Origin: Paenibacillus sp. TCA20
GTDB taxonomy: Bacteria; Bacillota; Bacilli; Paenibacillales; Paenibacillaceae
Direction: 5' to 3'
NCBI RefSeq assembly: GCF_000732325.1
Contig: NZ_BBIW01000005.1
Location: 1-64,000 of the forward strand
DNA: 64,000 nucleotides
The notes under the pieces are model-generated. The model did not search any database. It was given only the letters and a program-made list of their open reading frames with translations, and had not been told where the DNA came from. Positions 34,720 through 38,734 of this stretch are shown piece after piece. Each line of letters opens with the position of its first letter. The first letter of the stretch is position 1. The position numbers and the translations under genes were made by a program.

Positions 34720-34748
34720 TTGGCAATAACCTTTTCTATATGTATAAT
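34720..34748 (+). promoter_or_regulatory. Promoter of the T-box leader
   Basis: TTGGCA (34720-34725) and TATAAT (34743-34748) are 17 bp apart, about 25 bp before the T-box stem I. Confidence 0.7.
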
Positions 34749-34770
34749 AGTGGAAATTCAAAACACGAAA

Positions 34771-35050
34771 AGCGATGAAAGGGATCTGCTTCCGCATGAT
34801 GACTTAGAGAGCTGCCGGTTGGTGCAAGGCAGGGATTCAAGCAGAGGCACACCTCACCCTGGAGTAGTATAGCTGAATTGAACTCTTGCTGATATTGGAG
34901 ACTTCATTTAGGCTGTACCGGCTAACCGTCGATATACGGTTGTTCAAGATTCGGATGCGTTTGTGATCATGACCTGCATTCGAATAAAGAAGAGTGGTAC
35001 CGCGAAGGAATGATGGCCTGTCGCCTCTTTAGAGGCGACGGGATTTTTTG
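34771..35050 (+). promoter_or_regulatory. T-box riboswitch leader with terminator
   Basis: The region shows the T-box parts in order: the stem I base (AGCGATGAAAGGG from 34771), the apical GAGAGCTGCCGGTTGGTGCAA with its CTGCC/GGCAG helix (about 34813-34839), a CTGCTT/AAGCAG helix below it, the conserved T-box AGAGTGGTACCGCG (34991-35004), and a terminator GTCGCCTCT/AGAGGCGAC (35020-35039) ending in six Ts. Uncharged tRNA should favour the antiterminator. The specifier codon lies in AGGCACACCTC (about 34851-34861); GGC (Gly), CAC or CTC are possible and I cannot choose. The gene read through is a methyltransferase (35087), not a synthetase or amino-acid gene. Confidence 0.88.
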
Positions 35051-35086
35051 TGCTAAGCAGGTGAAATCCATTGCAGGGGGAAGGTA

Positions 35087-35902
35087 ATGATGAAGGAGAT
35101 CATTGATTATTATGAAGCCTTTGATGAATGGGGAAGACTGGATCGGGAACCGCTGGAATTTACAGTGAACTGGCATTATATAACGCGAAATCTTCCACCG
35201 ACGGGTCATGTACTGGACAATGGGGCAGGTCCAGGTAAATATGCAATGGAGCTGGCGAAGCAAGGCTATCGGGTCACCTTGTCTGATCTGACTCCGAGAC
35301 TTGTAAGCGTAGCTGAGGAACAGGCAGCTCATTTACAGCTGACCTCACAATTTGACGGATTTCATGTGCTGAATGCAGCCGACCTCCATTTATTTTCGGA
35401 CGAAGCCTTTGATGCATCCCTGATGCTCGGTCCTCTGTATCATTTGCAGGAGGAAACGGATCGATCCAAGGCGGCGAAGGAGCTGTATCGAGTTACCAGA
35501 TCAGGTGGAATCGTATTTGTTGCCTTTCAGACACGCACCCGCATGCTGCTGAACTCATTACTGAATCCAGCGCACTGGAAGCCGAATCATACGATGGGCA
35601 ATCTCGAGCAATTTTGGGCTACAGGCAGATTTAATCACGAGGATAAAGGGCGTTTTACGGGAGCGTACTACTTCGACACAGCCAGCATCGAACCTTTTAT
35701 GCAGGAGCATGGATTTGAGAAGATTAATCTTATTGGCTCTACCAGTATCGGAGCATTGCTGCAACCTGAACAGGTGGATTATTGGAGAAATCAAGGGGAC
35801 GAGGCTTACCGAAAATATGTGGAGCTGATGATCTCAACTGCAGAAGACACTGCGCTGCTTGGTATATCCTCACATTTACTCTACATCGGACGAAGAAGGT
35901 AG
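35087..35902 (+). CDS. SAM-dependent class I methyltransferase under T-box control
   Basis: 271 residues. The Rossmann methyltransferase core has motif I HVLDNGAGPGKYAMELAKQG (SAM binding), the acidic residue after strand two (TLSDLTPRLV), and motif IV SLMLGPLYHLQEE. The target substrate is unknown. The gene begins 37 bp after the T-box terminator with the ribosome binding site AGGGGGAAGG, so its expression should depend on a charged/uncharged tRNA ratio. That suggests a role in amino-acid, peptide or translation-related metabolism. An unlinked SRPBCC gene follows. Confidence 0.85.
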   Translation: MMKEIIDYYEAFDEWGRLDREPLEFTVNWHYITRNLPPTGHVLDNGAGPGKYAMELAKQGYRVTLSDLTPRLVSVAEEQAAHLQLTSQFDGFHVLNAADLHLFSDEAFDASLMLGPLYHLQEETDRSKAAKELYRVTRSGGIVFVAFQTRTRMLLNSLLNPAHWKPNHTMGNLEQFWATGRFNHEDKGRFTGAYYFDTASIEPFMQEHGFEKINLIGSTSIGALLQPEQVDYWRNQGDEAYRKYVELMISTAEDTALLGISSHLLYIGRRR

Positions 35903-36002: not shown

Positions 36003-36485
36003 ATGATCGCTCAAATTCAGAGGAATGAATCGGGTTACATCGCAGAATTCAAACGCGAATTAAATCATCCTGCATATAAGGTATGGGCAATGCTCATTGA
36101 TAACAAACGATTGAAAGAGTGGTTTCCAGAGCTTGAGGTGAAAGAACTCGGAAACGGGGGAATGATCCTGTTTGATATGCAGGATGGGACTTATGAGGAA
36201 ATGCCGATATTGGACTATGTAGAGGGCAAGGTACTCGAATTTGTGTGGGGAGAAGACAAGGTGCGATTTGAAATCCATGCAGACGAAACGGGCGAAACTT
36301 CGACGCTTCTACTCTCAGAAAAAATCACTTTTCTTACAGACCATACCCCTAAGGATCTGGCAGGCTGGCATGTCTGCCTTGATGCTATTGAAACTTTGTT
36401 AAATGGAAGAGCATTAACAGAGAGTAAAGAAGAGTGGGATCACTGGTATCCGCAATATGTGGAAGCACTCAAGCCTTTACAATAA
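36003..36485 (+). CDS. SRPBCC (AHSA1-like) domain protein
   Basis: 160 residues from ATG 36003 behind AGAAGGAGGG; the longer in-frame extension upstream overlaps the methyltransferase gene and is not supported by codon pattern. The START-like fold shows FKRELNHPAYKVWAMLID at the N-terminus, then WFPELEVKELGNGG and a C-terminal helix with GWHVCLDAIETLLNG. Such cavities bind small hydrophobic ligands; role unknown. It follows the methyltransferase by 100 bp and may be its co-transcribed partner. A terminator follows at 36499. Confidence 0.8.
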   Translation: MIAQIQRNESGYIAEFKRELNHPAYKVWAMLIDNKRLKEWFPELEVKELGNGGMILFDMQDGTYEEMPILDYVEGKVLEFVWGEDKVRFEIHADETGETSTLLLSEKITFLTDHTPKDLAGWHVCLDAIETLLNGRALTESKEEWDHWYPQYVEALKPLQ

Positions 36486-37799: not shown

Positions 37800-38734
37800 T
37801 TATCTTGACGAAGAGATTTTTTCCTCGTTCTGCCATCGATCTTCCAGCTTCTCGTTTAAATTCAAACCCTGCATATAGTAGTCTATTAAAAATTGCTTGA
37901 AAGCTAGAGCCGCTTTCGATAAATAGCGGTTCTTATGCCAGGTTAAACGAAACAAGGCTTTGGAATGCTCATCAACGATGCTGACTAGCTGCACCTGGGG
38001 AGACCAGTCACGAATACAGGAGGATACGAAGGCGACTCCCATCCCTGCTTCAACCATTTTGAGCAGCATGGAGGGTTCATCCACCCGGCATACAAAATTT
38101 GGTGAAATTCCGGATTTACGACAAAATTCATTCTGGATATGGTAGAGAGCATGAGTTTCCTTGTAACCAACAAAGTGCTCTTGTTTCACTTCAGACAGCT
38201 GCAGCCTGTCACGATCAGAGAAGGGATGGTTTGGGGGGAGTGCCAAATTAATAATTTCTTTCGTGAGATATTCAGATTGGATATCCGATGCAGCGATCGG
38301 AAGGGAAGACAGGCAATAATCAATCCGATCTTCATTTAGTAAAGACTCCATCTCATGATGTGTGGCTTGAATGATCCGAATTTGGCGTTTGGATACTTCT
38401 TACTGAACAATTTCAAAGGCTCTCCTATACGATCCGGGTCTTGAATGGCAATCTCAATCCTTCCTTGGTTCAGTCCAGCCATGTCCTCAAGTTCTCTTCT
38501 GCCTTCTTCAAGTGTTGACAGCACGAGTTCTACTCGCTGAAGAAATGATCTCCCGTATTCATTAAGCCTTATCTGCCTGCCGTTCCTTCGAAATAAAGGA
38601 ACACCCAGATCCTCTTCAAGGCGAGCGATGGTTTTGCTGAGCGCAGGCTGAGCAATTCTTAACTGCTCAGCAGCCTTCGTCATATGCTCAAGCTGCGCCA
38701 CAGTACGGAAATAGTGAAGCTGCAAAAGTTCCAT
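37800..38734 (-). pseudogene. LysR-family regulator, frameshifted near the middle
   Basis: The N-terminal part (start 38734, ribosome binding site AAAAAGGAGC) encodes the LysR helix-turn-helix (MTKAAEQLRIAQPALSKTIA, then RLEEDLGVPLFRR) and stops at 38336 after 132 residues. A second frame opens over the same stretch and encodes the rest of the effector domain to 37800 (with PPNHPFSDRDRL, GMGVAFVSS). Joining them needs one extra base in the AAATTCGG stretch at about 38375-38382 (minus strand), restoring NAKF-RIIQATHHEMESLL and about 311 residues, the usual length. It is divergent from the MFS gene at 38870, which it probably regulated. Confidence 0.85.

Follow-up and report, generated by a model that had tools for sequence, protein, structure and literature searches.

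A predicted leucine T-box leader before a class I methyltransferase gene in Paenibacillus sp. TCA20 and its relatives

The leader and its target gene

We analysed a stretch of 64,000 nucleotides (nt) from Paenibacillus sp. TCA20 (assembly GCF_000732325.1, contig NZ_BBIW01000005.1, positions 1 to 64,000 of the forward strand), hereafter the window, in which a T-box leader stands directly before a gene for a class I S-adenosylmethionine (SAM)-dependent methyltransferase of 271 residues (35087..35902, +). An earlier reading made from the sequence alone, which we call the sequence-only reading, had recognised the T-box sequence, the apical element of Stem I and the terminator, and had proposed that the leader controls the methyltransferase as the first gene read. 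The protein matched Methyltransf_11 with E 2.5e-15, as that reading had expected of a class I SAM-dependent enzyme, and a second ATG at 35090 agrees in the family alignment with the starts of most relatives. Searches for a specific function gave no more than matches to methyltransferases in general, and no NCBIfam family scored above its cut-off.

The leader matched the T-box model RF00230 over 34766..35031 (+) and over the full model length (positions 1-219 of 219) with 68.6 bits and E 6.7e-15 in a relaxed cmscan, so that the covariance model does score it, albeit below the gathering score of 93, for which reason the leader is missing from an Rfam scan of the window with default settings, which gave no matches. 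The TCA20 genome holds 22 such matches, only 7 of which reach the gathering score while 15 fall below it. On the forward strand, and as placed by the Rfam alignment together with motif positions, the apical part of Stem I, AGAGAGCTGCCGGTTGGTGCAAGGCAG, lies at 34806..34832 with its motif GGTTGGTGCAA at 34817-34827, and the T-box sequence AGAGTGGTACCGCG, which carries the TGGT for the tRNA acceptor end, at 34991..35004. The fold and the Rfam alignment gave an antiterminator of two helices flanking a seven-base bulge at 34990..35030 (+; -9.0 kcal/mol), and the fold and a pattern scan gave an intrinsic terminator at 35017..35050 (+), whose strong stem (35017-35042; -21.7 kcal/mol, z -6.5) is followed by a T tract. 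The three leader elements named beforehand were thus confirmed. The consensus promoter that had been proposed at 34720..34748 (+), TTGGCA-17-TATAAT, does match 11 of 12 consensus bases; on the other hand, one such site was found in the region against a mean of 2.7 in shuffled sequences, and the site is therefore weak evidence when taken alone.

The specifier had been narrowed to GGC, CAC or CTC, and it is the last of these, the leucine codon CTC at 34853..34855 (+), that fits both the Rfam alignment, where it is the triplet before the purine and the lower-stem CC (here A and CCC), and the relatives described below. Stem I of the TCA20 leader, when folded alone, was no more stable than shuffled sequences (z +1.3), its minimum-energy fold places CTC inside a local hairpin, and the AGUA strand of the specifier loop, which the Rfam alignment shows in other leaders such as that of locus L034, is absent; hence the specifier call rests on comparison and not on the fold. 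The AGUA strand is usual in T-box specifier loops, not universal. A tRNA pattern search with ARAGORN naming found two tRNA-Leu(GAG) genes in the TCA20 genome, both with a discriminator A, which fits the UGGU of the leader. In its full-length match, its CTC, its T-box sequence, antiterminator and terminator and its matching tRNA the leader resembles the leucine-class T-boxes, and it belongs to the same RF00230 class as that of Bacillus subtilis ilv-leu (CUC, according to a reference title in the accessible part of PMC2494555); unlike them it lacks the AGUA strand and has an uncharacterised methyltransferase as its target. The RNA itself is an ordinary T-box, and the interest lies in this unusual target.

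How unusual it is can be seen from the same genome, where 21 of the 22 T-boxes precede aminoacyl-tRNA synthetase or amino-acid synthesis genes and the methyltransferase is the sole exception, most of these target names coming from a reading of the sequences and not from family searches. The other T-boxes with a CTC specifier stand before leuA, a second 2-isopropylmalate synthase gene, leuS and ilvB. Both 2-isopropylmalate synthases, each with its own leucine T-box (L212 5045-6610 (-) and L222 7597-9327 (-)), exceeded NCBIfam cut-offs, one being of the bacterial and one of the yeast type.

Occurrence among orthologues

The sequence-only reading had suggested a check of whether homologous methyltransferases in related genomes also follow T-boxes. 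Of 295 genomes sampled from the family, 139, in 13 of 19 genera, held a match to the enzyme at an E value of 1e-30 or lower; of 398 sampled from the class, 37, in 13 of 145 genera, held one at 1e-50 or lower. The 165 loci pooled from these searches were reduced to 130 with distinct genes; since they are the best matches of each search and not a random sample, the fractions given here are not population frequencies. A T-box motif, with up to two substitutions allowed, was present within 260 nt upstream of the methyltransferase in 49 of the 130 loci, which span several genera and include Brevibacillus panacihumi, and 47 of these 49 leaders carry CTC, constant amid varying flanks. When 32 motif-positive leaders including that of TCA20 were submitted to the covariance model, 31 were confirmed, the miss being L122, whereas the motif-negative loci L029, L031 and L032 gave no covariance-model match. 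A consensus fold of 47 leaders in one alignment, which omitted L122 and L151, had 32 shared pairs, 14 of them altered in both partners; in the TCA20 clade, whose four leaders are too few to prove a fold, there were 74 pairs, 5 of them altered in this way. As a small control we examined seven paralogues of 30-36% identity, and none had a convincing T-box within 1500 nt, L220 alone giving a weak motif match. The T-box almost certainly places the methyltransferase gene under leucine control, with the switching itself presumed from the known T-box mechanism. In none of the loci examined did the leader stand before a synthetase gene with the methyltransferase inserted by chance.

Two of the 49 leaders do not carry CTC. 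That of L055 (genome G095) has the specifier GTC in the context GAAGTCGCCC, which equals the context in the TCA20 T-box before valS (L009), so that this leader has probably switched from leucine to valine. In L122, from P. rigui, the T-box and terminator part is kept with no recognisable Stem I or specifier; this half T-box precedes the methyltransferase by about 94 nt and itself follows shortly after a promoter-like sequence. T-box losses do occur in methyltransferase lineages, as exemplified by L029, where a decayed T-box motif, GTGGTACTTCG, is found beside a hairpin about 74 nt upstream of the gene. A scan at gathering scores of 20 orthologue loci, of which 19 lack an adjacent T-box, showed no other riboswitch immediately before the methyltransferase and in its orientation; the exceptions in that scan were the T-box before a GNAT gene in Paenisporosarcina and the T-box pair of P. 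marchantiophytorum, both taken up below.

No neighbour gene recurs throughout 19 orthologue loci and one paralogue (a further locus yielded no methyltransferase open reading frame), and the commonest neighbour family is present in 26 of the 130 loci. In the window, the methyltransferase is followed after 100 nt by a gene for an AHSA1-like protein (36003..36485, +; AHSA1, E 2.2e-07), and a pattern scan found no terminator between the two, so this gene is possibly cotranscribed with the methyltransferase; TCA20 shares it with three close relatives only (the neighbour occurs in L023-L026), and it lies outside the conserved pairing. Among the eight window proteins tested by Pfam none was a synthetase or other amino-acid gene product, in agreement with the statement of the sequence-only reading that no amino-acid gene lies alongside. 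Further on, a LysR-type regulator gene at 37800-38734 (-) is split over two overlapping open reading frames (HTH_1, LysR_substrate), while in the relative L081 such a regulator is a single open reading frame of 317 residues.

Linkage to leuA and descent of the leader

Furthermore, a second association with leucine synthesis was noticed among the 81 loci that lack an adjacent T-box. In 11 of them the methyltransferase follows a leuA-type gene of the same orientation at a distance of 8-146 nt, and in all 11 two T-boxes stand upstream of that leuA (7 by covariance model and 4 by motif), with CTC found in 21 of the 22 T-boxes concerned. The identity of leuA was established with LeuA_dimer and TIGR00973, both above cut-offs in the two proteins tested (L115 and L151), and the remaining leuA-type proteins were grouped with these two by blastp. 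The gene order is not fixed, for leuA is upstream of the methyltransferase in L115 and downstream of it in L151, one of the 49 T-box loci, from P. marchantiophytorum, where the order is T-box, T-box, methyltransferase, leuA. The leuA of G104 shares only 42% identity with that of L115, and the pairing is therefore not bound to one leuA lineage. Tandem T-boxes before leuA in Bacillota have been described already (PMC12452182), and our leuA loci share that arrangement; a methyltransferase after leuA is not mentioned in the accessible portion of that paper. A third arrangement was seen in two Paenisporosarcina loci, L110 and L117 (1710-2500), in which a leucine T-box is followed by a GNAT acetyltransferase gene and then by the methyltransferase. 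By blastp this GNAT protein was grouped with proteins from L142 and L157 whose genes precede the methyltransferase by 0.8-1.5 kb. The leader is thus no stray element, given that 49 of the 130 genes have a T-box of their own, nearly always with CTC, while 11 more are linked to leucine by way of leuA and 2 by way of GNAT.

To relate these arrangements we placed them on a FastTree tree of 128 methyltransferase proteins, which has a midpoint root only and many weak forks. One side, of 69 rows, held 47 with a T-box and 22 without a leucine link; the other, of 59 rows, held 11 with leuA, 2 with GNAT, 1 with a T-box (L151) and 45 without a link. This distribution means that the two routes to leucine control fall mostly on different sides of the tree, and the four leucine-link states require 16 changes on it against a mean of 49.7 when shuffled. 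Trees of T-boxes themselves are called unreliable in the accessible part of PMC2494555. The leaders were also compared directly for a possible origin from a leuA leader. The Paenisporosarcina leader was about 75% identical over about 240 nt to the methyltransferase leaders of Paenibacillus (best E 4e-42), and its matches to leuA leaders did not exceed 64 nt. The TCA20 leader says less on this point: outside its four-member clade it gave matches of about 62-75 nt to other methyltransferase leaders and of 74 nt to one leuA leader, and that of P. marchantiophytorum most closely resembled leuA leaders.

Possible role of the methyltransferase

The sequence-only reading had left two alternatives, that the enzyme belongs to amino-acid metabolism or that the original target was lost and the leader captured, and the prevalence of CTC together with the leuA loci and their tandem leucine T-boxes favours the former. 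Since many relatives keep the gene under leucine control, the enzyme most likely has a function, so far overlooked, in leucine synthesis or close to it, and on the strength of this linkage we consider that the enzyme probably acts in or near leucine metabolism. The best overall explanation, which we hold with moderate confidence, is that the gene encodes a methyltransferase of the leucine regulon that would be induced at leucine shortage and whose substrate would be a small molecule of the leucine pathway or its vicinity. When leucine is short, uncharged tRNA-Leu(GAG) would pair with CTC at the specifier and with TGGT in the bulge, the antiterminator would replace the terminator, and the methyltransferase would be made. 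The enzyme may then O-methylate a carboxylate group, be it on isopropylmalate, on isopropylmaleate or on a side product, so as to repair, discard or signal.

Such methyl-esterification of an isopropylmalate-type acid is suggested only tentatively, by analogy with yeast Tmt1, a trans-aconitate / 3-isopropylmalate methyltransferase, which methylates 3-isopropylmalate and isopropylmaleate and is tied to leucine synthesis and, through a reference title, to amino-acid starvation (PMC3197675). In its favour, the nearest characterised fold is that of CmoM of Escherichia coli, the tRNA cmo5U34 carboxyl methyltransferase, which methylates a carboxylate (PMC10516636). Both Tmt1 and the TCA20 enzyme are class I methyltransferases tied to leucine synthesis, Tmt1 being likened to it by description and not by sequence, and a shared activity is a guess. 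It is conceivable, at rather long odds, that the TCA20 enzyme is a separately arisen bacterial counterpart of Tmt1, with a dedicated leucine T-box or a place in a leuA transcription unit, and that its starvation-induced esterification would serve metabolite repair at the isopropylmalate isomerase step or yield a secreted signal.

Several observations weigh against this explanation as a whole. No leucine link was seen in 68 of the 130 loci, which shows that the enzyme has no need of one, and these 68 include the sampled Bacillaceae save for two "Bacillus sp." records that group with Paenibacillus. In several leuA loci hairpins lie between leuA and the methyltransferase, which leaves cotranscription of the two unproven. 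Escherichia coli Tam scored 2 bits by hmmsearch and hhalign aligned its SAM-binding part alone, so no whole-enzyme kinship to Tam extends beyond that part. The nearest characterised fold, at 19% identity, is that of E. coli CmoM, which acts on tRNA. TM1389 of Thermotoga (2avn), uncharacterised and 21% identical, is of no help, being itself without known function.

An alternative is that the enzyme is a CmoM-like tRNA methyltransferase which adjusts a tRNA under leucine limitation. We regard this as unlikely. The CmoM model NF008264 gave 37.5 bits, far below its cut-off of 366, and the family is acidic, with a median isoelectric point of 5.4 against 7.7 for CmoM. A rough alignment at 23% identity would put the CmoM substrate residues R26 and W124 opposite E24 and E122, and Y247 and K22 opposite H263 and R20. 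Such a scheme offers no evident reason for the linkage to leuA; the enzyme's acidity and its link to leucine set the TCA20 methyltransferase apart from CmoM.

Somewhat less probable still is a protective enzyme that methylates a naturally occurring compound which inhibits leucyl-tRNA synthetase or the synthesis of leucine, the leucine T-box serving as a poison sensor. Such inhibitors are commonly inactivated by acetylation or methylation, which makes the Paenisporosarcina gene behind a GNAT acetyltransferase under a leucine T-box suggestive, as do the monocistronic gene and its patchy distribution; linkage to leuA in 12 loci nevertheless suits metabolism better, and among the 130 loci neither transporter nor resistance genes recur beside the methyltransferase. 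We give about as little credence to C- or N-methylation of a leucine precursor or of leucine itself to yield an unusual building block, since genes for peptide synthesis do not recur in the vicinity and induction at leucine shortage would waste the precursor. Capture without function, in which the methyltransferase is read from a leftover leucine T-box whose target was lost, agrees with the absence of the T-box from several lineages, one with the decayed motif of L029, and with the 3' half leader of P. rigui, but is very improbable for the present state, though it may describe the origin, in view of the CTC kept in nearly all leaders across several genera, the second route by way of leuA, found mostly on the opposite side of the tree, and the long match of the Paenisporosarcina leader to those of Paenibacillus.

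The leucine-regulon methyltransferase is thus the explanation we prefer. A pairing of a T-box with a methyltransferase was not reported in the literature searched, which included the accessible part of PMC7778990, and tables of T-box catalogues may well list such loci. If the explanation is true, leucine synthesis in these bacteria would have a methylation step or side reaction that was not found described in that literature. The specifier, the linkage to leuA and the recurrence of both place a widespread, unnamed methyltransferase of the Bacilli next to leucine synthesis, and they suggest that the specifier of a T-box can hint at the role of a gene without assigned function.
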